A stretch of DNA of 53,714 bases from Candidatus Harrisonbacteria bacterium RIFCSPHIGHO2_02_FULL_42_16 (GTDB lineage Bacteria > Patescibacteriota > Minisyncoccia > UBA6257 > 02-FULL-45-10c): contig MHJG01000002.1 of assembly GCA_001818695.1 (NCBI GenBank), positions 14,431 to 68,144 of the forward strand, read 5' to 3'. Both the position numbers and the translations under genes were made by a program. Below, piece by piece: positions 4,849 to 29,489 of this stretch (position 1 is the stretch's first letter; each line of letters starts with the position of its first letter). A model generated the notes under the pieces. It searched no databases. It was not told the origin of the DNA and saw only the letters and a program-made list of their open reading frames with translations.

Positions 4849-6732
4849 TTAGTCAACTACCCCGCGTATTCTCCTGACTCCGGCTCCGACCGCTTCCTGC
4901 TTAGAAATTTTAAATTTCCCAATCTTAAAAGTATTGGCAACATGCGGTCCGCCGCAAAATTCCCGACTGAAAGCCGGCTCTGAGCTTACCGAGGAATTGC
5001 CGCCTATTGAATAAACTTTAACTTTGTCAGGGTATTTTTCTTTGAAAAAATACAGGGCGCCGGTTTTTTTAGCTTCTTCAATCGGCAATTCTTGATAAGT
5101 TACCGGCAAATCCTTTTGAATCGCCTCGTTCACTAAGTCCTCAACTTTTTTAATTTCTTCATCGGTCAATTTCCGCGAAAATGAAAAATCAAAGCGGGTG
5201 CGTTCCGCCGTAATATCCGAACCCATCTGCTTTACTTCCGAGCCAAGAACCCGGCGGAGCGCAGCTTGAAGCAAGTGCGTGGCAGTATGAAGCCGGGTTA
5301 CTTTTTCCACTTCTTCCGGCGTGGATGCTTTCAATTCTCCGGTATCTAAAATCAAGCCGTGCCCGCCAAATTTCTTTTCCTGTCCGGCGCGGGAAATTTC
5401 CTGATGTTTCTGAAATTCGGCGTCAAAATCTGCCTTATTCAAATTCTTCACCTTATCCGGAACTAATTCCTGAAGTAATTCAAACGGCAGGCCAAAGGTC
5501 TCGTAAATATAAAAGGCGTCTTTGGCGGTAATTCTGTCGTATTTCTCTATTTCTTTAACTCCGAGCGCCAATGCTTTCTCAAACTTATCTTTTTCACCGA
5601 ACAAAATTTCCAAAATCTCTTTCGTTTTTTTGACTTCCGGATACCATTCCCCATAATTTTCTTTCACGAAATCAACTGCTATTGAAAATAAATCCGCGTG
5701 GATATCATATTTGATTCCGTACACTAAAATTCTCCTCAAAAGCCGCCGCAAAATATACCCTGCTTCTTTATTGGACGGCCGAAGCCCATCGGCAACCAAA
5801 AAAACCGAAGCGCGCAAATGGTCAGCCAGTATTTTTAATACCTTTTTATGGAGTACCGACTGTGTTTCGTGCGGCAATTTTGGAACGGCCTCTCTTAATT
5901 TAAAAATAAGTGGATAGAATAAATCCGTCTCAAACACATTTGGAACGCCTTGCATCATTACCGCCAGCCGTTCCAATCCCATTCCGGTATCCACTCCCGG
6001 ACTGCTGATTTTTTCTAACTCTAACCCATCGCCTCCAATTTCTAACCTCTTACCGTAGTATTCATTAAAAACCAGATTCCAAATTTCCACATCATCAACA
6101 TAAATTTCTGTGGTAGGGCCGCAAGGGCCTTCATTGCCAGTCGGTCCCCACCAATTATCTTCCCGGCCATGTTCCTTAATTTTATCCTCCGGCAAACCGA
6201 TTTCTTTATGCCAGATATTAAACGATTCTGCGTCACGCGAAACTTGTCCCTCACCCTTGAAAGAGTGATTTGTAAACGAACCGCTTGCTTCGCGCTCTTT
6301 CAAGGGTGAGGGGTCGCCGCCGAATACCGATACCGTAATCCGTTCCCGGGCAATTCCCAAAACATCCACGATAAATTCATACGCCCAATGAATCGCTTCT
6401 TTTTTGAAATAACTCGCGCCGCTGCCATCTAGATTTGCCGGGCCGCCGAACGAAAAATTTCCCAACATTTCAAAAAAAGTAAGGTGGGTCTCATCCCCGA
6501 CCGAATCAATATCCGAAGTCCGGAAACATTTTTGAACGGACGCGGCATTTCTACTCTTAAAATCCCGCAATGGGTCGGCTTTGCCGATATAATACGGCTT
6601 GAATTGCTGCATTCCGGCGGTAGTCAAAAGCACCGACGGGTCGTCGGGAATTAAAAGCGAAGATGGAACAATCTTATGCCCACGCTCCTCAAAAAAATTC
6701 AGAAATTTTCCGCGGATTTCCTTAGAATTCAT
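4849..6732 (-). CDS. alaS: Alanyl-tRNA synthetase, short form
   Basis: MNSKEIRGKFLNFFEERGHKIVPSSLLIPDDPSVLLTTAGMQQFKPYYIG; HTATH and CGGPH zinc motifs; 627 aa. Confidence 0.97.
   Translation of the reverse strand: MNSKEIRGKFLNFFEERGHKIVPSSLLIPDDPSVLLTTAGMQQFKPYYIGKADPLRDFKSRNAASVQKCFRTSDIDSVGDETHLTFFEMLGNFSFGGPANLDGSGASYFKKEAIHWAYEFIVDVLGIARERITVSVFGGDPSPLKEREASGSFTNHSFKGEGQVSRDAESFNIWHKEIGLPEDKIKEHGREDNWWGPTGNEGPCGPTTEIYVDDVEIWNLVFNEYYGKRLEIGGDGLELEKISSPGVDTGMGLERLAVMMQGVPNVFETDLFYPLIFKLREAVPKLPHETQSVLHKKVLKILADHLRASVFLVADGLRPSNKEAGYILRRLLRRILVYGIKYDIHADLFSIAVDFVKENYGEWYPEVKKTKEILEILFGEKDKFEKALALGVKEIEKYDRITAKDAFYIYETFGLPFELLQELVPDKVKNLNKADFDAEFQKHQEISRAGQEKKFGGHGLILDTGELKASTPEEVEKVTRLHTATHLLQAALRRVLGSEVKQMGSDITAERTRFDFSFSRKLTDEEIKKVEDLVNEAIQKDLPVTYQELPIEEAKKTGALYFFKEKYPDKVKVYSIGGNSSVSSEPAFSREFCGGPHVANTFKIGKFKISKQEAVGAGVRRIRGVVD
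6248..6312. repeat. Palindromic element read in frame inside alaS
   Basis: 18-bp perfect inverted repeat ccctcacccttgaaagag (6248-6265) / ctctttcaagggtgaggg (6295-6312). Confidence 0.85.
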
Positions 6733-7381: not shown

Positions 7382-8962
7382 CTACTCTCCGGAATTTAAC
7401 TTTTGAATCGCCTCCTCCTTTAATTCCTTTTCTTTTTGGCCGCTCATCGGCAAAACTTTTTCAATAAACGGCTGAGTCGCCCGCCTTTCTTTTATTTTTT
7501 CTTCTACCCGATTCAATAAAGATTGAAGCATTTCCTCGGCAGAAAATAACAGTAACTTTGACGCCTTTAAATAAGGAATAACGGAATCCGGCTGGCTGTT
7601 TTTCCGACTTATTAAGTCCGACAGTTTAACCAAAGAGTTTTCGGTCTCCGCCGCAAAGGCGTAAAATTCCTTGGCATTTTTTTCAGTCAGCCCGTTTTTT
7701 TTGGCATTATCCATCAAATCATCATAAGCCGACTTCAATAATTGAAGCTCTTCACTTTTATCTTCAAAAAAGGCCAGTTGGCTTAACACTCCGCGAGCCG
7801 CCGCCAAGGATATGGACGCCCGGCTGAAAACATCGCCATACTGCTTCTCTTTCAAAAATTCTTCCGCCTGCTTAACATTAAATTCGGCTTGTAAAAAAAG
7901 ATTCTTAACGGCGCTACTTTTTATATTTGGCAATAAAGCGTTTTCTAAAATACCTAATACTAAATTAGCTTCGCTTAAGATATTTTCCGCTTCCGACCTT
8001 CCGATTCCCTTACCCGCGGATTCAAACAATTTTTGCCGGGCTAAATTAAACGAATTCTTTAAGTCCTGATTGTCAATAAACTCCCGCGCCTCATCTAACG
8101 TTTTGATACGGCGCAATAAATCGCCAGGCAACGCCTCTAATAATTCCGGCAAATACCGAACTACATCCCGCGAAATAATTTTCACCTGGGATTTCAATAA
8201 TAAGTCATTTTTAACTTTCAAAAATTCTTTTTGCAGCTGCGATTCTTGGCTGTCAAATTCCTTGCCGGCATCCAATAATAATTTTTCTTCAAAACGGCCC
8301 AGCGCCTCCGCGCCGCGGAATTCTTTCAGCAGGCCGTCCGGCTGGCCTTCTAAAATTTCCCATATTTTATTTTTCAAATTTTGAACGACGCCCAGTTTTA
8401 CTAATGCCATCGGCGCCAATGAACTTAACTTTTCTTGGGAAATTTTTAGCTCTTCGTCAAACTGGCGGCTGGCGGCCGGTTTTAATTCGTCAAAAAGCTC
8501 AATATGCTTCACGGCTAAATCAATCAAGGTATTGGCAATTCCTGAAACAAGAGAGTTCCCATCTATTTTTTTAATGCCGCCGGCATATTGCTGTAAACGG
8601 CCAATACTCTCCTGATAAAGCTTAATGGCGCTGGATAATCCCTTGGCATTATCCGGAATAATCTCATGTAAATTTTTTAATTCCGCGGCTTTATTGTTTA
8701 AAATGCCTAATTCCAGCTCTATCTTTTTTAAAATATCAAAAGATAAGGTCCGCAAAGTTGAACGTTTCAGCTTCTTTACGAAATAAAAGAAATTGGTATT
8801 TAATAAGCCGGGATTCTCCACTCCGAGATTTTCCAATTTCACTTCTTCGGCGGCAATCAAATCCTGCACGATGCTTTCACTGGCAATATCCGCCTTAGCC
8901 GTCCCGCCACCCATGCCGCCTCCGATTGCCAATAAAATTAAAATTATTTTTAAATTTTTCAT
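7382..8962 (-). CDS. Secreted, probably coiled-coil/helical hypothetical protein
   Basis: 526 aa; N-terminal MKNLKIILILLAIGGGMGGGTAKA looks like a signal peptide; Leu/Glu/Lys-rich remainder. Confidence 0.65.
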   Translation of the reverse strand: MKNLKIILILLAIGGGMGGGTAKADIASESIVQDLIAAEEVKLENLGVENPGLLNTNFFYFVKKLKRSTLRTLSFDILKKIELELGILNNKAAELKNLHEIIPDNAKGLSSAIKLYQESIGRLQQYAGGIKKIDGNSLVSGIANTLIDLAVKHIELFDELKPAASRQFDEELKISQEKLSSLAPMALVKLGVVQNLKNKIWEILEGQPDGLLKEFRGAEALGRFEEKLLLDAGKEFDSQESQLQKEFLKVKNDLLLKSQVKIISRDVVRYLPELLEALPGDLLRRIKTLDEAREFIDNQDLKNSFNLARQKLFESAGKGIGRSEAENILSEANLVLGILENALLPNIKSSAVKNLFLQAEFNVKQAEEFLKEKQYGDVFSRASISLAAARGVLSQLAFFEDKSEELQLLKSAYDDLMDNAKKNGLTEKNAKEFYAFAAETENSLVKLSDLISRKNSQPDSVIPYLKASKLLLFSAEEMLQSLLNRVEEKIKERRATQPFIEKVLPMSGQKEKELKEEAIQKLNSGE

Positions 8963-9094
8963 CCCTCACCCTTAAAGGATCGCGAAAACGCCGCAATACC
9001 TTTGTGTTAATTGAAGACCTTTCGTCAAAATTGTTTCTGTAAAAAATTTCATATAATTTGCAAGTAATTTATCAATCCTTTAAGGGTGAGGGAT
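8961..9094. mobile_element. MITE-like 134-bp element, copy 1
   Basis: Perfect 20-bp terminal inverted repeats atccctcacccttaaaggat / atcctttaagggtgagggat; second copy at 29356-29489. Confidence 0.8.
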
Positions 9095-19449: not shown

Positions 19450-20712
19450 TTACGCAATAACCCCGCCACCCAGCATTTCGTACCCCCAGTCCCGCTTTGT
19501 GAAACTACGGCGGACGCTGTAAAAAACCGCTGATTGTCCCTGGGCAACAAATTTAATCGGTTGATTAAATTTTAATTTCCATGTCGCTTGTCGCTTATTG
19601 CTTTTCGCTAAAATGGCTTTTACTAACGGTTGCCGGTAACGAACGCGGACATATACGGAAATTGGGTAATTGAGTAATTGGGTAATTGAATTAATAAAAT
19701 TTATATTCTTTAATTCTATTTCTTTTTTATAAAGCGCTGGGTCGCTTTCTTCCGCGACCAAAATCGCGTTTTCTTTTACATCTTTTTCCGCAACATAAAC
19801 CGGCTTTTGCCCGACACCGGACACTTGATACTTGACGCTTAAATGCCGTTGGCCAATAGTATAAAAATGCGCTCCGCTATGCTCGCCGACAACCTTGCCG
19901 GCAGTATTTAAAACAATGCCGCGCTTTTCCGGCAAATAATTCCCCAAAAAATCTTTCAGCGTTATCTGGCCCAAAAAACAAATTCCCTGCGAGTCCTTTT
20001 TATCGGCGTTCGGCAAGCCGAATTTCTTCGCCAATTTTCTCACTTCTGGCTTGATATAATCACCAATCGGAAACAAGCAATGCCGCAACTGATTTTGCGC
20101 CAAAGTCCATAAAAAATAGGACTGGTCTTTATTTAAATCTTTAGCAGCAAACAATAAATAGCGAAGGTGTTGCCGAGTTGCTGTGGAGAAACTTCGGAGC
20201 TTCGAAAAGATTGGTGTCGCCATAGGCGACTTTTCGAAGCGAGACGTAGCGGGCGCTCGCCGCTGGAGCGAGCGAACCGCGGTTCTCGCAGGCAATTCGG
20301 CAACACCCGAACGCACGTAATGCCCTGTCGCCACATAATCCGCTCCCATATCCAACGCCTTTTTCAAAAACAATCCGAACTTAATTTCTTTATTGCACAT
20401 CACATCCGGATTCGGCGTAATTCCCTGCCGGTATCCATCCACCATATACTCCACCACCTTTTCTTTATATTCTTTTTCAAAATCAAAGACATAAAACGGA
20501 ATGCCCAAAACCTCCGCCGCTCTCCGCGCGTCTTCAGAATCTTGCTCTGCAGAGCAAGATTCTGCCCTGAGCGTAGTCAAAGGGCTACCGCTCCAGCACT
20601 TCATATGAACTCCAACTACATCAAAACCCCGTTTTTTTAAAAGCGCCGCCGCCACACTTGAATCAACGCCCCCGCTCATTGCCACGAATACTTTTTTAAT
20701 AACGCTTGACAT
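19450..20712 (-). CDS. mnmA: tRNA-specific 2-thiouridylase
   Basis: KKVFVAMSGGVDSSVAAALLKKRGFDVVGVHMK; ATGHY; KDQSYFLWTL; DSQGICFLG. Confidence 0.95.
   Translation of the reverse strand: MSSVIKKVFVAMSGGVDSSVAAALLKKRGFDVVGVHMKCWSGSPLTTLRAESCSAEQDSEDARRAAEVLGIPFYVFDFEKEYKEKVVEYMVDGYRQGITPNPDVMCNKEIKFGLFLKKALDMGADYVATGHYVRSGVAELPARTAVRSLQRRAPATSRFEKSPMATPIFSKLRSFSTATRQHLRYLLFAAKDLNKDQSYFLWTLAQNQLRHCLFPIGDYIKPEVRKLAKKFGLPNADKKDSQGICFLGQITLKDFLGNYLPEKRGIVLNTAGKVVGEHSGAHFYTIGQRHLSVKYQVSGVGQKPVYVAEKDVKENAILVAEESDPALYKKEIELKNINFINSITQLLNYPISVYVRVRYRQPLVKAILAKSNKRQATWKLKFNQPIKFVAQGQSAVFYSVRRSFTKRDWGYEMLGGGVIA
20166..20307. repeat. Complex palindromic element in frame inside mnmA
   Basis: Outer arms ggtgttgccgagttgc / gcaattcggcaacacc (1 mismatch); inner gcttcgaaaa/ttttcgaagc and gtcgcc/ggcgac; flanking cgaa on both sides. 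Confidence 0.75.
20535..20564. repeat. 30-bp perfect palindrome inside mnmA
   Basis: cagaatcttgctctg|cagagcaagattctg, followed by ccctgagcgtagtcaaaggg. Confidence 0.85.
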
Positions 20713-20780: not shown

Positions 20781-21077
20781 ATGTACTCAAAGCAAATGAA
20801 AATCGTGTACCGTGTGATTGGTCTCATTGCGATAGCGATAACAATAGGAATGCTTACGCCCATGCCCGCATTCAGATTCTTTTCAATTGATATAAAAGCC
20901 CATGACGCCAAACCCGATCCTTGCCAGCAATATCAAGAAAACGCCTTAAAATACATTCAAATGACAGAAGAATATCGAAAAAAAGAGTGGTGGCCAGGAG
21001 AGGCGGCTTCTGTGGCAGCAGCTTATAGCAGCTATTATCTCGTCTGTCGCGACCTTGAAAAACGGCAAAACCGCTAA
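20781..21077 (+). CDS. Small single-TM hypothetical protein ending CRDLEKRQNR
   Basis: SD aggaggg, N-terminal TM segment; C-terminal 10 aa identical to the ORF at 21793. Confidence 0.6.
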   Translation: MYSKQMKIVYRVIGLIAIAITIGMLTPMPAFRFFSIDIKAHDAKPDPCQQYQENALKYIQMTEEYRKKEWWPGEAASVAAAYSSYYLVCRDLEKRQNR

Positions 21078-21084
21078 GCTGTTC

Positions 21085-21297
21085 TCAAATATAAATGCCC
21101 AACCTGTAAAGGTTGGGCATTCTTTTTAAGAAATTCGCCAGAAACTTGTCTGATTTTTTTAAATAAAATACCTTAATGCCTTTAGGCAAATAATCATCAA
21201 CATTATGGTTAGCTCCCATAATTAAAATCCCGGTTTCGTCATCTTTTAAGGTCTGGCTTATTTGTTTAGCAATATATCGGTCCCGGCGCAACAGCAT
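21085..21297 (-). pseudogene. Truncated duplicate of the 22157-22714 gene
   Basis: DRYIAKQISQTLKDDETGILIMGANHNVDDYLPKGIKVFYLKKSDKFLANFLKRM is nearly identical to the longer gene; 5' leader remnant at about 21398-21472. Confidence 0.75.
21096..21132. terminator. Terminator hairpin, copy 1
   Basis: aaatgcccaacctgtaaaggttgggcattcttttt; duplicated at about 22146-22182. Confidence 0.75.
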
Positions 21298-21472
21298 TTT
21301 AATTCTTCCTCAACAATATTCCAAAATAAATTTAACACCCCTTTTTATTCAACAGTTAAAATACCGCGCCTACCAGAATCAGCCGAACTATGCATCACGC
21401 GAATATAAATCAATCTCCGCATTATTACCTCCTTCAATTTGCTGGCTATACAGTAGCACGGAAACTATAAAT

Positions 21473-21733
21473 TTAAAAGCCCATAAACCGCTCTCCTGCC
21501 TTATAAACATCGCCGGCGCCCATAGTAATCACCAAATCGTCTTTTTTAGTTTCCGCGATTAAAATTTTTGCCGCTTTTGAAAAATTCTCCGCGTAGCGCG
21601 CGTTTTTATGGTATTTTTGCGTTTTTTTAACCAAATCAGCCGAGCTGGTGCCGTCATTTTTTTCCCGCGCCGCGTAAATATCCACTCCTCCGGACATGGC
21701 TACAAATACTTTTTTCTTTTTAACATTTGACAT
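21473..21733 (-). pseudogene. Chimeric ORF: MnmA N-terminus fused to MurC C-terminus (duplication junction)
   Basis: MSNVKKKKVFVAMSGGVD matches the MnmA start; IYAAREKNDGTSSADLVKKTQKYHKNARYAENFSKAAKILIAETKK... matches the MurC C-terminus. Confidence 0.85.
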
Positions 21734-21792
21734 ATTAAGATAGGTAGATTATATTACTTTTAGACCTCAAAAATCAAACTAGGGACTGGGGG

Positions 21793-22128
21793 ATGAAAAT
21801 GAAAAAAAGATCTCGCCGCAAAGAGAATGACCATCTGGCAGACCAGCAATTGGAATGTCAATCCAAAAGAACTATATGGGTTCCTATTGCTATCCTGATA
21901 ATTATTGTCTCCATAGGAATAACCGGTTTATCCCTATTAGAAAAATCAGATAATAGAAAAATCGCGGAAAGAAAAAAGGTATTCATGGCCCGTATTCAAT
22001 CCGGAGATTGTAAACAATTATATAAGGAATCTCTGGAAGATGCAGCTAATATGCTTTGGCAGTCTTCAGCCGCTAAGGGCGTTCTTTACCAAAACTGCCG
22101 CGACCTTGAAAAACGGCAAAACCGCTAA
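21793..22128 (+). CDS. Small single-TM hypothetical protein ending CRDLEKRQNR
   Basis: 111-aa ORF; TM segment WVPIAILIIIVSIGITGLSLL; upstream TTGACA-N17-TATATT. Confidence 0.6.
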   Translation: MKMKKRSRRKENDHLADQQLECQSKRTIWVPIAILIIIVSIGITGLSLLEKSDNRKIAERKKVFMARIQSGDCKQLYKESLEDAANMLWQSSAAKGVLYQNCRDLEKRQNR

Positions 22129-22156
22129 GCTGTTCTCAAATATAAATGCCCAACCT

Positions 22157-22714
22157 TTACAGGTTGGGCATTCTTTTTAAGAAATTCGCCAGAAACTCGT
22201 CTGATTTTTTTAAATAAAATACCTTGATGTCTTTAGGTAAATAATCGTCAACATTATGGTTGGCCCCCATAATTAAAATTCCGGTTTCGTCATCTTTTAA
22301 GGTCTGGCTTATTTGTTTAGCAATATATTTATCTCTAAGCCGCCTTATTTTTGCCATTTCTTCTTCACAGCAAAGAGCTAATCTGAAATTATCGCATAAT
22401 TCTTCGTTCTCGGTCAGCATTAATTTTGCTCCTCGTTTTATTAAATTCAAAATTAATTTGTAATTCCTACTTCCGTCTGCGCTTCTTTTTTCCATTTCGG
22501 CGTAAATTTCTTTGCCATCCTCGCAATAACCATCTTGATACAAGCGTGTCTGCGAATACCTTAAATTAATTCTACCTAATTCTTTCTCGGCCATATCCCA
22601 AAAAGAATTTATGAAGTTTTCCTTTTTAACATCAAAACCAATACCATTACTAAAATCAACGGGGCTATGTATCACGCGAATATAAATTAATCTCCGCATT
22701 ATTGCCTCCTTCAA
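22157..22714 (-). CDS. Hypothetical protein (GILIMGANHNVDDYLP motif)
   Basis: 185-aa ORF; likely start MRRLIYIRVIHSPVDF. Confidence 0.6.
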   Translation of the reverse strand: MKEAIMRRLIYIRVIHSPVDFSNGIGFDVKKENFINSFWDMAEKELGRINLRYSQTRLYQDGYCEDGKEIYAEMEKRSADGSRNYKLILNLIKRGAKLMLTENEELCDNFRLALCCEEEMAKIRRLRDKYIAKQISQTLKDDETGILIMGANHNVDDYLPKDIKVFYLKKSDEFLANFLKRMPNL

Positions 22715-22749
22715 TTTGCTGACTACATAGTAGCACGGAAACTATAAAT

Positions 22750-24024
22750 TTAAAAGCTTGTAAACTGCTCTCCTATTTTATACACATCGCCGGCGCCCAT
22801 AGTAATAACCAAGTCGCCTTTTTTTGTTTCCGCGATTAAAATTTTTGCCGCTTTTGAAAAATTCTCCGCGTAGCGCGCGTTTTTATGGTATTTTTGCGTT
22901 TTTTTAACCAAATCAGCCGAGCTGGTGCCGTCATTTTTTTCCCGCGCCGCGTAAATATCCATTACTATTACCGCATCGGCATCATTAAAACTTTTCGCGA
23001 AATCATTCATCAATAATTTCGTCCGGCTGTAAAGATGCGGCTGAAAAACGCAAAAAATCTTTTTATTCGCAAAAGCTTCCCGCACGGCTTTCAGCGTGGC
23101 TTTAATTTCAGCCGGATGATGGCCGTAATCGTCATAAACCAAAACGCCGTTTTTAGTTTTACCTTTATATTCAAATCTCCGCCAAGTACCGGAAAAATTT
23201 TCCAAGGATTTCCGAATAGTATTTTCCCGAATACCAAGCATTTTCCCGACCGCGAACGCCGCCTGCGCGTTATCCAAATTATGTTCGCCGATAACTTTCA
23301 ATTTAAAATCGCGCGGCAATTTTGTATAATCAATAATTTCACATTTCGCAATTTTCACAACCGGCTTCATATATTTCCCGTTCGGATTGCAAATCAAATA
23401 ACCGTCTTTTCCCAATTTAGCCGCAAATTCGCCAAAGGCCTTCTGAATATTTTTAACGCTCTTATAATAATCCAAGTGGTCATTGTCAATGTTAGTGATA
23501 ATAGCAATTTTAGGATTGATATTTAAAAATGACCGCTTATACTCACACGCCTCCACCACAAAATATTTGCTTCTACCGGCAACAAAATTAGATTTTTCCT
23601 CTCTCAATAAACTTCCGACAATTATCGTCGGGTCCAATTTGGCGTCGCGGAGCATCATTCCGACCATCGCCGTAGTGGTGGTTTTTCCGTGCGCTCCGGA
23701 AACCGCAATCGTGTATTTATCTTTGGAAATTGCGCCGAGCATTTCTGGATACGAAAATGTTCGGATGCCAAGCTTTCTTGCCTTAATTAATTCCGGATTA
23801 TTTTCGGCTACTGCCGGCGAATACACCACCAAATCCGCCGCTTTCAAATTTTTCCCGCTGTGCCGATAATAAATCTTTGCCCCGATTTTTTCCAGCGCTT
23901 TGGTAATTTCCGAACGCGCGATATCCGAACCACTTACCGTCTTCTTCCCCCGTAAGAACATCCGCGCAACCGCCGAAACCCCAATTCCGCCAATGCCGAT
24001 AAAATGTATCTTTTTACTTGACAT
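22750..24024 (-). CDS. murC: UDP-N-acetylmuramate--L-alanine ligase
   Basis: KIHFIGIGGIGVSAVARMFL; SGAHGKTTTTAMVG; DDYGHHPAEIKATL. Confidence 0.96.
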   Translation of the reverse strand: MSSKKIHFIGIGGIGVSAVARMFLRGKKTVSGSDIARSEITKALEKIGAKIYYRHSGKNLKAADLVVYSPAVAENNPELIKARKLGIRTFSYPEMLGAISKDKYTIAVSGAHGKTTTTAMVGMMLRDAKLDPTIIVGSLLREEKSNFVAGRSKYFVVEACEYKRSFLNINPKIAIITNIDNDHLDYYKSVKNIQKAFGEFAAKLGKDGYLICNPNGKYMKPVVKIAKCEIIDYTKLPRDFKLKVIGEHNLDNAQAAFAVGKMLGIRENTIRKSLENFSGTWRRFEYKGKTKNGVLVYDDYGHHPAEIKATLKAVREAFANKKIFCVFQPHLYSRTKLLMNDFAKSFNDADAVIVMDIYAAREKNDGTSSADLVKKTQKYHKNARYAENFSKAAKILIAETKKGDLVITMGAGDVYKIGEQFTSF

Positions 24025-24091: not shown

Positions 24092-24829
24092 ATGACTAAC
24101 TTAGCGCTGTGGCTGGTAACGGTGAGCGCGTATTTCGAGGTATGGTACTGGTTAAATGTTCCGGTTGGATTACAAAAATCCGTCTGGCGAATTAGTTTGC
24201 TAATGCTTCTCTGCGCCCCTTTTAACATTAATGATAATGTGTTCACGATACTTGGAAATGCCGTGAGCCAAAAGAACAGTTACGCTCTTTTCCCTTTATA
24301 TCAAAAAGCGGAACAGAAAGCAGATGCTCCATTTGCTCTGTACCAATCAGCTGGACAGAAAGCAGATGCTATATTTGCTCTGTACCAATCAGCTGGACAG
24401 AAAGCAGATGCTATATTTGCTCTGTACCAATCAGCTGGACAGGGAGCAAGTGCTGCATTTACTCTGTACCAATCAGCTGGACAGATAGCAGTGGCTGGAT
24501 TTGCTCTGTACCAATCAGCTGGACAGGGAGCAAATACTATATTTGCTCTGTACCAATCAGCTGGACAGAAAGCAGATGCTACATTTACTCTGTACCAATC
24601 AACTGAAAAGGACGCATTTGCTATATTTACTCTGTACCAATCAGCTGGACAGGGAGCAGATGCTATATTTGCTCTGTACCAATCAGCTGGACAGAAAGCA
24701 GATGCTATATTTGCTCTGTACCAATCAGCTGGACAGGGAGCAGATGCTTTATTTGCTCTGTACCAATCAGCTGGAAAAAAATCGGGCTCTCGGAGTTTTT
24801 TCAGAAATAAATCAAAACTAAAAGATTAA
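24092..24829 (+). CDS. Repeat protein: N-terminal TM region plus twelve 14-aa repeats (FALYQSAGQKADAI)
   Basis: SD aaaggagga; 42-bp repeats 24290-24793 in frame; followed by a terminator. Confidence 0.7.
   Translation: MTNLALWLVTVSAYFEVWYWLNVPVGLQKSVWRISLLMLLCAPFNINDNVFTILGNAVSQKNSYALFPLYQKAEQKADAPFALYQSAGQKADAIFALYQSAGQKADAIFALYQSAGQGASAAFTLYQSAGQIAVAGFALYQSAGQGANTIFALYQSAGQKADATFTLYQSTEKDAFAIFTLYQSAGQGADAIFALYQSAGQKADAIFALYQSAGQGADALFALYQSAGKKSGSRSFFRNKSKLKD
24290..24793 (+). repeat. 12 x 42-bp tandem repeat array (coding)
   Basis: Unit tttgctctgtaccaatcagctggacagaaagcagatgctata. Confidence 0.93.
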
Positions 24830-24885: not shown

Positions 24886-24913
24886 ACAAAACACAGATAT
24901 GTAAAAATTGTTT

Positions 24914-24931
24914 GGTTCTAATATTAGAACC
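24914..24931. promoter_or_regulatory. 18-bp palindrome ggttctaatattagaacc, site 1
   Basis: Perfect palindrome; four sites in about 0.7 kb. Confidence 0.8.
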
Positions 24932-25017
24932 AGACATAAAAAAATAATAAAAATTAAAGATGTATAAATTTAAAAAATAAGTTAGCAAAAAATCTAAGGT
25001 ATTTATACTCATTACTT

Positions 25018-25035
25018 GGTTCTAATATTAGAACC
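25018..25035. promoter_or_regulatory. 18-bp palindrome, site 2
   Basis: ggttctaatattagaacc. Confidence 0.8.
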
Positions 25036-25057
25036 GAGCTTCTTATACTAAAAAAAA

Positions 25058-25444
25058 TTAAAGGAGGTCAATAATGTTTGTCGCGCCTTTATATTTCCGA
25101 CGAAACGGTTTAAATGTTTTTTCTTGTCTAAATACTGAGTATTTTCTTTTTCTGTTAGGATTTTTTCCGTATCCTCTGCCGGCAATAATATCACTTATTT
25201 TGCTTATAGTCCCACTAGAAATGCCCAATAATTCTTTAATATCCCTATATTTCCTCTTTTTTTCCAATAGCTTAATCACCGCGATTCTGCGAATAAAGAG
25301 TATCTTCTCATCAGAGGTCATAAATTTATTTAAAAATTCCTCTGCCTGATTAAACGAGTTAATCTTTTTAAATTCTTTTAACAATTCCGAAGCAATTTCT
25401 TTCTCTAACGCTTTATTTAATTTTTTGTTTTTAATTATTGCCAT
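25058..25444 (-). CDS. TrpR-like (YerC/YecD-type) HTH regulator
   Basis: FMTSDEKILFIRRIAVIKLLEKKRKYRDIKELLGISSGTISKISDII is a TrpR-superfamily HTH. Confidence 0.85.
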   Translation of the reverse strand: MAIIKNKKLNKALEKEIASELLKEFKKINSFNQAEEFLNKFMTSDEKILFIRRIAVIKLLEKKRKYRDIKELLGISSGTISKISDIIAGRGYGKNPNRKRKYSVFRQEKTFKPFRRKYKGATNIIDLL

Positions 25445-25508
25445 ATCAACACTATATTAGTAACACATTAGTAATACTGTATTAAAACTATCATACCACA
25501 TCTTACCT

Positions 25509-25526
25509 GGTTCTAATATTAGAACC
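25509..25526. promoter_or_regulatory. 18-bp palindrome, site 3 (upstream of the TrpR-like gene)
   Basis: ggttctaatattagaacc; next to a possible minus-strand promoter TGGTATGAT. Confidence 0.8.
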
Positions 25527-25593
25527 ACGAGGAAATGAGTAAAACTTTCCAAAATTCTGCTAATGGGTATTTTATAAAAATAAAGCAGTATCT

Positions 25594-25611
25594 GATTCTA
25601 ATATTAGAACC
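25594..25611. promoter_or_regulatory. 18-bp palindrome, site 4 (one base changed)
   Basis: gattctaatattagaacc. Confidence 0.75.
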
Positions 25612-25667
25612 ACAAGGAAATGAGTAAAACTTTCCAAAATTCTGCTAATGGGTATTTTATAAAAAAA

Positions 25668-27772: not shown

Positions 27773-29357
27773 TTTCTCCGCTATCTTCGGTTTCGTCCAT
27801 CAAATTTTTTTCTCCGCTGCTTGCGTCAAGAGATTTTTCCAACGTCTTCCGCAAATCAGCGATATTAACTTTTTGTTTTTCCGGAAATCGCGGCGGACGC
27901 GGTATAAACGCCGGACGCTCCTGCTCTTTCGGCTGCGCCGGCTTCAATACCTCGGAAAGGGGCCTCTCATTCTTATTCGGCAAACGGGATAGGTGGGGTA
28001 TAAACGCCGGACGCTCCTGCCGAACTTTCGGCCACATCGGTTTTGCTTCCGACGCCTTATTGCCGCTCTGCACCCATTCCTTGCCGATTTTTTCTTCAAT
28101 AATTTCTTTCGGGATGCTGTATTTTTTTCTGCTATTTTCAATTATTGAACCCTTAAAACTAGTTTCCGGCAGCTGATATGGCGGGATATTGCTGGCGGAA
28201 AAGGGCCGGGAAGCCACTCCATCAATCATTAATTTCGTATAAAAATTATATTTCGGCAGATTAACTAAATCGGTGCCCATAAAATCCGGCTGGAATTCTT
28301 TTTCCAAAAATTCTCCGTCTTCCGCCCCCACTCTGAAAGTAACTATCGTGCCGACATTTCCAAAAATGGCATCGCGTACTTTCCAGCTTTGGACATGAAG
28401 CAATTGTCCTATGTACTGATGCGCCAAAACCAAACTTAACCGATATTTTCTCGCCTCGGAAAGAATATTGGCAAAGGACTCGGTGGCAAAATTCTGGAAC
28501 TCATCAACATAAAGATGGAAGTCCTTCCGGTCTTTTTCCGGTATATCCACCCGCGACATAGCGGCTAATTGCAATTTAGTTATTACCATCGCTCCCAAAA
28601 GAGCCGAATTATCCTCGCCGATTTTGCCCTTGGACAAATTAACGATAAGAATTTTCTGTTCGTCCATAATCTTCCGCATGTCCACCGAAGAATGAGTTTG
28701 TCCCAAAATGTTCCTAATCAGTGGATTGGTGACGAATTGCCCCACCTTATTCTGAATGGCGGCGGTAGCTTCCGTTTCAAATTTCTGGCTATATTTGGCA
28801 AATTCATTAACCCAAAAGCCCTTAACCACCGGATCTTTCAAATTATCCACCACGCCCTTGCGGTATTCTTTGTCCGAAAGCATCCGCATAATGCCGAGAA
28901 GCGTGGAACCGGGACATTCCAATAAAGCCAGCAGAGTATTATTTAAAATATATTCCATCCGAGCCGACCACATGTCCACCCAGATTTTTTTAAATACGCC
29001 CATAATTCCGGAAGCCACCAGATGGCGGTATTCCGTTCCCACCTGTTCCAACGGATTAAAAGCTATCGGGAAATTCATATCGGCCGGATTAAAATAAATA
29101 ACGTCGTTTATCCTGCTTTCCGGAACAAAATCCAAAATTTTCTCCGCGAATTCTCCGTGCGGGTCAACTACGCCGACTCCCCGGCCGGCCAAAATATCCG
29201 AAATAACCATATTTTCCAAAAGAGTGGTCTTGCCCATTCCGGTTTTTCCCACGACATACATATGCCGGCGGCGGTCATCAATTTTTATGCCGAATTTCCT
29301 GGTTTGGCTGCGGAAATTAATGATTCCGAACAAAGTTTTTTCTTCTTTATTTTTCAT
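27762..29357 (-). CDS. VirD4/TraG-like ATPase (type IV secretion coupling-protein family)
   Basis: Walker A VVGKTGMGKTTLLENM; GVVDPHGEFAEKIL; DEFQNFATESFANILSEARKYRLSLVLAHQY. Confidence 0.88.
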   Translation of the reverse strand: MKNKEEKTLFGIINFRSQTRKFGIKIDDRRRHMYVVGKTGMGKTTLLENMVISDILAGRGVGVVDPHGEFAEKILDFVPESRINDVIYFNPADMNFPIAFNPLEQVGTEYRHLVASGIMGVFKKIWVDMWSARMEYILNNTLLALLECPGSTLLGIMRMLSDKEYRKGVVDNLKDPVVKGFWVNEFAKYSQKFETEATAAIQNKVGQFVTNPLIRNILGQTHSSVDMRKIMDEQKILIVNLSKGKIGEDNSALLGAMVITKLQLAAMSRVDIPEKDRKDFHLYVDEFQNFATESFANILSEARKYRLSLVLAHQYIGQLLHVQSWKVRDAIFGNVGTIVTFRVGAEDGEFLEKEFQPDFMGTDLVNLPKYNFYTKLMIDGVASRPFSASNIPPYQLPETSFKGSIIENSRKKYSIPKEIIEEKIGKEWVQSGNKASEAKPMWPKVRQERPAFIPHLSRLPNKNERPLSEVLKPAQPKEQERPAFIPRPPRFPEKQKVNIADLRKTLEKSLDASSGEKNLMDETEDSGETTL

Positions 29358-29489
29358 CCCTCACCCTTAAAGGATCGCGAAAACGCCGCAATGCCTTTGC
29401 GTTAATTGAAGACCTTTCGCCAAAATTGTTTCTATAAAAAAATTCATATAATTTATAAATAATTTATCAATCTTTTAAGGGTGAGGGAT
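29356..29489. mobile_element. MITE-like 134-bp element, copy 2
   Basis: Same length as 8961-9094, about 9 differences; 20-bp TIRs with one mismatch. Confidence 0.8.

Follow-up and report, generated by a model that had tools for sequence, protein, structure and literature searches.

The 53,714-nucleotide stretch of DNA analysed here, referred to as the window, encodes an alanyl-tRNA synthetase (AlaRS) with a perfect-armed palindrome inside its reading frame and carries intergenic elements that share the ends of this palindrome. The features concerned are:

4849..6732, minus strand: AlaRS ORF, 627 aa (PF01411, E=3.1e-106), the single AlaRS match in its own genome
6248..6312, no strand assigned: 65-bp palindromic element within AlaRS, reading PSPLKEREASGSFTNHSFKGE(G) on the coding strand and missing from relatives
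6248..6265, plus strand: left arm CCCTCACCCTTGAAAGAG, the first 14 bp of which equal the ends of a GIY-YIG element
6295..6312, minus strand: right arm, exact reverse complement of the left arm
8961..9094, no strand assigned: long intergenic relative made up of 130 bp (CCC...GGG) with AT on each side
29356..29489, no strand assigned: another long intergenic relative, sharing 94% identity with the 8961..9094 copy in the repeat comparison and likewise arranged as TAAT/element/ATG

The palindrome is laid out as CCCTCACCCTTGAAAGAG-(29 nt)-CTCTTTCAAGGGTGAGGG, and its perfect 18-bp arms, first described in a first-pass annotation of this DNA, were confirmed in the sequence. Only two 18-bp inverted repeats exist in the window. 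In simulated windows (order-1 Markov), inverted repeats with 12-bp arms occurred at a rate of 0.9 per window, and 30 runs produced no inverted repeat with 14-bp arms.

The AlaRS gene is present in a single copy and intact, with one terminal stop, and its best matches are found in Ca. Harrisonbacteria and other Parcubacteria. It is 81% identical over aligned residues to the nearest named relative and, as the differences fall mostly at third codon positions (266 vs 56 at second positions), is under purifying selection. The element lies in the first quarter of the ORF and is open in the frame used on the coding strand, the other five frames containing stops. It codes for about 22 residues (PSPLKEREASGSFTNHSFKGEG). 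The first-pass annotation had proposed about 25 extra in-frame residues; the in-frame reading stands while the size does not, as QVS belongs to the flank and the net gain relative to plain relatives (GD-S-E-VPQD there, GD-[22]-QVSRD here) is 21 codons. Tryptic peptides predicted over the insert are ITVSVFGGDPSPLK, EASGSFTNHSFK and GEGQVSR, and we infer that the inserted peptide is retained in the mature enzyme. In an AlphaFold2 model, insert residues 141-162 form a loop of low confidence (block pLDDT 55 and 47), preceded by a core strand (132-137) and followed by a helix (168-178), in line with the surface loop that had been expected. The insertion site is read as a tolerant surface turn leading from the core β-strand to the next helix. 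The flanking residues are directly adjacent in aligned AlaRS sequences of the PDB (residue 134 of 1riq on both sides).

Comparison with relatives, as suggested by the first-pass annotation, found the segment in this genome alone. It is absent from all 30 aligned sequences of its own family and order, and equally from the 90 sequences that could be parsed at the site out of 109 fetched, a set in which some genomes are represented twice. All 90 carry at most 14 residues at this position and 64 carry five. Protein-level conservation across distant Patescibacteria without a palindrome, the pattern named there as speaking for an ordinary lineage insertion, was not found. Across genome_contigs, which covers 85,488 species genomes and possibly leaves out this genome's own records, scanning gave no match to an element of the 65-bp type bearing these ends.

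Sequence searches, together with the stretches around element copies, were used to place the palindrome in its genomic context. Its 14-bp end, CCCTCACCCTTGAA, also terminates intergenic elements of 126-134 bp, with A or G at position 12. The pattern CCCTCACCCTTRAA has 52 exact matches in the 754-kb genome, compared with 0 for a reversed control pattern, and is present in 4 of 60 other relatives. The earlier proposals, that the AlaRS palindrome is related to the intergenic element and that it has the CCCTCACCCTT(A/G)AA end in common with the 134-bp copies, are borne out by these ends. The 8961..9094 element is located between the stop of an rpoD-like gene (TAAT) and the ATG of the next gene, and many intergenic copies sit exactly between a TAA stop and an ATG start. 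Among 82 element ends from four genomes, AT is found next to the element in 63, ATG in 34 and ATTA in 23. Most intergenic copies have AT on both sides. The region upstream of pilB offers a comparison of occupied and empty sites. A relative without the element (G008) has the junction TTTTAATGGACG with a single AT, in this genome an array of elements ends there in GGG/ATGGATG, and G017 carries a same-ended element. At locus L228 of G003, an element with different terminal repeats, ending in ATCCCGTTAGAGATA, abuts the pilB ATG. Ends similar to ATCCCGTTAGAGATA also bound the GIY-YIG loci L174 and L181. Separately, two pilus-type genes lie on a 1112-bp segment that is tandemly repeated between element arrays at L022 1-2162; this is either a true duplication or an assembly effect.

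A second 65-bp copy was identified in an unrelated coding gene of this genome (G000):

G000:C20:2363-2427: second copy of the same length, with 18-bp arms identical to those of the AlaRS copy

Its core is identical to the AlaRS core at 15 of 29 positions and lies in the opposite orientation. The copy is read in frame as PSPLKERFLSKHLASHSFKGEG within the C-terminal domain (PF00408) of a phosphomannomutase/phosphoglucomutase, at a site that is empty in most relatives and holds a PSAGSGQ repeat in G008. This gene is split: an ORF that looks PP2C-like by eye separates its N-terminal ORF from its C-terminal one (L020 2245-4807), which makes its functionality less certain than that of AlaRS. The C-terminal half further contains a second private insert of 12 aa.

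The longer family member sharing these ends is:

G000:C3:11593-12014: GIY-YIG element, 422 bp, each end starting with the same 14 bp

Its arms are perfect over 19 bp, one flanking base included, and match those of the coding copies over 14 bp only. It contains a GIY-YIG ORF (PF01541, E=3.7e-16), the sole recognisable gene, and a nested 126-bp element. Similar GIY-YIG element copies were found at different loci in G003, at contig ends; the two left ends are 95% identical and each preceded by TAAT, the two right ends 100% identical and each followed by ATG. Perfect inverted repeats of at least 11 bp flank 21 of 32 single-domain GIY-YIG loci in the order, these loci being the best matches per genome and not a random draw, compared with 6 of 709 control windows taken from the same loci; the other 11 have no such flanking repeats. 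The repeats often start with ACCCC or ATCCC and the element lengths are mostly 250-340 bp. The G000 element is not counted among the 21, as its nested insertion made the automated window miss the repeats. In a phylum-wide sample, flanking repeats were found at 5 of 29 GIY-YIG loci (controls 3 of 801) and 24 were without them, which does not support the notion that every GIY-YIG gene in the phylum represents such an element. No description of GIY-YIG elements bounded by terminal inverted repeats in Patescibacteria/CPR was found in the open-access literature searched, and one may exist elsewhere.

The arrangement TAAT/element/ATG, seen at many intergenic sites and in the two GIY-YIG copies of G003, makes a duplication of AT within a TAATG stop-start overlap likely, and this 2-bp target duplication is the simplest reading for the long copies as judged from their junctions. 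Long members would accordingly target TAATG, converting it into TAAT-element-ATG. For the coding copies, a simple AT target duplication was discarded in view of the junctions. Their flanks are AC/AC on the coding strand in AlaRS and GT/AT in phosphomannomutase, and the net inserts amount to 63 and 60 nt, respectively, not 65 nt plus a duplication, so that simple insertion fails to account for them.

A different history must also be weighed. The nearest relatives, G006 and G010, carry PSAGSGQV and LSAGPGQV at the AlaRS loop, encoded by CCTTCGGCAGGCTCAGGGCAAGT-type repeats. Their DNA reads GAC-CCTTCGGCAGGCTCAGGG-CAAGTT, or a variant of it, at the position occupied in this genome by GAC-CCC...GGGA-CAAGTT, and both flanks therefore match. 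The AlaRS insert may therefore have arisen through conversion or replacement of a pre-existing repeat of the CCTTCGRCARGCTCAGG family, without any insertion into an empty site, and the PSAGSGQ repeat of G008 at the phosphomannomutase site fits the same scheme. However, empty sites are common at both the AlaRS and the phosphomannomutase loci, and the new arms fit the mobile family, not the old repeat. Related PS..SGQ-type inserts also occur at the AlaRS loop in the more distant lineages L100, L106 and L157, so the site may simply be a tolerant spot that has been used more than once. Replacement is the most serious competitor, and we regard it as unlikely overall.

Mobilisation of a REP-type palindrome by a RAYT/IS200-like tyrosine transposase is considerably weaker as a candidate. 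In-frame insertion into genes, tRNA synthetase genes included, is known for REPs (PMC3733652), and Y1 transposases are present in some relatives. However, the Y1 transposase family PF01797 has no match in this genome (~91% complete) or in the element-bearing G003, the ends lack a GTAG or CGTC tag, and the terminal inverted repeats enclose a GIY-YIG ORF instead. We consider this origin improbable. Recruitment of a regulatory RNA structure or terminator within the gene is more doubtful still. The coding-strand RNA of the element does fold strongly (-43.8 kcal/mol, z -4.9), but the hairpin lies early in an intact ORF, is followed by GACAAGUUUC with no U run, is confined to this lineage and recurs as a sibling copy in a second coding gene. 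Least credible of all is an ordinary lineage-specific protein insertion that is palindromic by chance, since the variability of AlaRS loop lengths in Patescibacteria, which would favour it, is set against the lack of 14-bp arms in the simulated windows, an end common to 52 genome matches and, contradicting it directly, the same arms and length in an unrelated gene.

Other repeats were observed in the course of this analysis. The MnmA gene (19450-20712, minus strand) contains a 30-bp perfect palindrome at 20535-20564 and an 11-bp-arm palindrome at 20199-20240, the latter within a segment missing from solved MnmA sequences. The AlaRS genes of two relatives (L113 and L123) have unique in-frame palindromic inserts, and a PSAGSGQ repeat is present at another site in the AlaRS of L030. 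Together with the private 12-aa insert of the mutase, these cases give the impression that in-frame palindromes are recurrent in these bacteria and belong to several families. Elsewhere in the window, four copies or near copies of the palindrome GGTTCTAATATTAGAACC surround the gene of a Trp-repressor-like protein (PF01371; 25058-25444, minus strand) within 24913-25612 and are possibly its operators. The ORF at 24092-24829 (plus strand) consists mostly of a 14-aa tandem repeat, ALYQSAGQ.ADAIF, with a 42-nt unit. Duplicated segments (95% and 83% identical) including 3' gene fragments are found beside a MurC-like gene at 21044-22876.

Taken together, the AlaRS segment is likely a 65-bp non-autonomous mobile palindrome, translated in frame and belonging to a GIY-YIG-carrying family, with GIY-YIG mobilisation as the most likely means of spread. 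As a type, it is best read as a coding insertion resembling both Rickettsia palindromic elements (RPEs) and MITEs. We hypothesize that the palindrome entered the AlaRS gene and was then translated, and that it would have been kept because one reading frame was open and the landing site was a tolerant surface turn. In the proposed mechanism, the GIY-YIG protein would recognise the terminal inverted repeats or the target and then cut the target, and copies would spread through repair of the cut. The shared ends and shared target suggest that this protein probably mobilises the palindromes in trans. As for AlaRS itself, the nearest relatives have another kind of repeat in this loop, and the history may therefore have been one of replacement. 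A broader proposal is put forward tentatively, at slightly less than even chances. Patescibacteria would harbour minimal mobile elements, about 250-340 bp when intact, in which a GIY-YIG gene stands alone between terminal inverted repeats, and at least one family would target TAATG overlaps and spawn short palindromes; by landing in frame within genes as well, these would extend core enzymes, AlaRS among them, with additional peptides.

Protein-coding palindromes have been known chiefly from Rickettsia and some REP-rich bacteria. To our knowledge, no mechanism has been established for the movement of RPEs. The AlaRS case is an example of this known kind of in-frame palindrome and a new variant for Patescibacteria, while the link between in-frame palindromes and a GIY-YIG protein appears to be new. 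As the palindromes share ends with an element carrying one small nuclease gene, the mobilising enzyme is testable in this system. If the proposal is true, this would be a very small transposable element and a route by which streamlined genomes gain extra peptide loops in essential enzymes.

Several known systems can be compared with the elements described here. Free-standing GIY-YIG homing endonucleases are similar in consisting of a single-domain GIY-YIG protein (PF01541) in a selfish-looking context. In contrast, the genes studied here are often bounded by 11-22-bp terminal inverted repeats, occur at different loci (G003) and have short derivatives without the gene; Rfam detected no intron family in L011 or the window and only a tRNA in the sources searched. 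GTAG/CGTC-tagged REPs have intragenic cases, among them tRNA synthetases, with termini supplying stop codons (PMC3733652). The REP/REPtron (RAYT) system shares with the present one palindromes near or inside genes and differs in its tag and Y1 transposase, neither of which was detected here, and in the arms, which are here of the terminal-inverted-repeat type. MITEs correspond in being short, in sharing terminal inverted repeats (14 bp in this case) with a longer one-ORF element and in the probable 2-bp target duplication of the long copies. Unlike in MITEs, the coding copies are without clean duplications, and in place of a known transposase the longer element has a gene for a GIY-YIG nuclease. 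RPEs are mobile palindromic repeats found in frame in unrelated, probably functional genes, where the added peptide is tolerated (PMC10969869, PMC3733652), and the parallel drawn by the first-pass annotation is supported: the AlaRS palindrome is in frame within an intact gene, restricted to one lineage and missing from relatives, and the same element occurs in more than one unrelated gene (AlaRS and phosphomannomutase). This likeness is one of described traits and the element is not claimed to be an RPE; it belongs to a different phylum, measures 65 bp vs about 150 bp, and its ends match those of an element with an endonuclease ORF.
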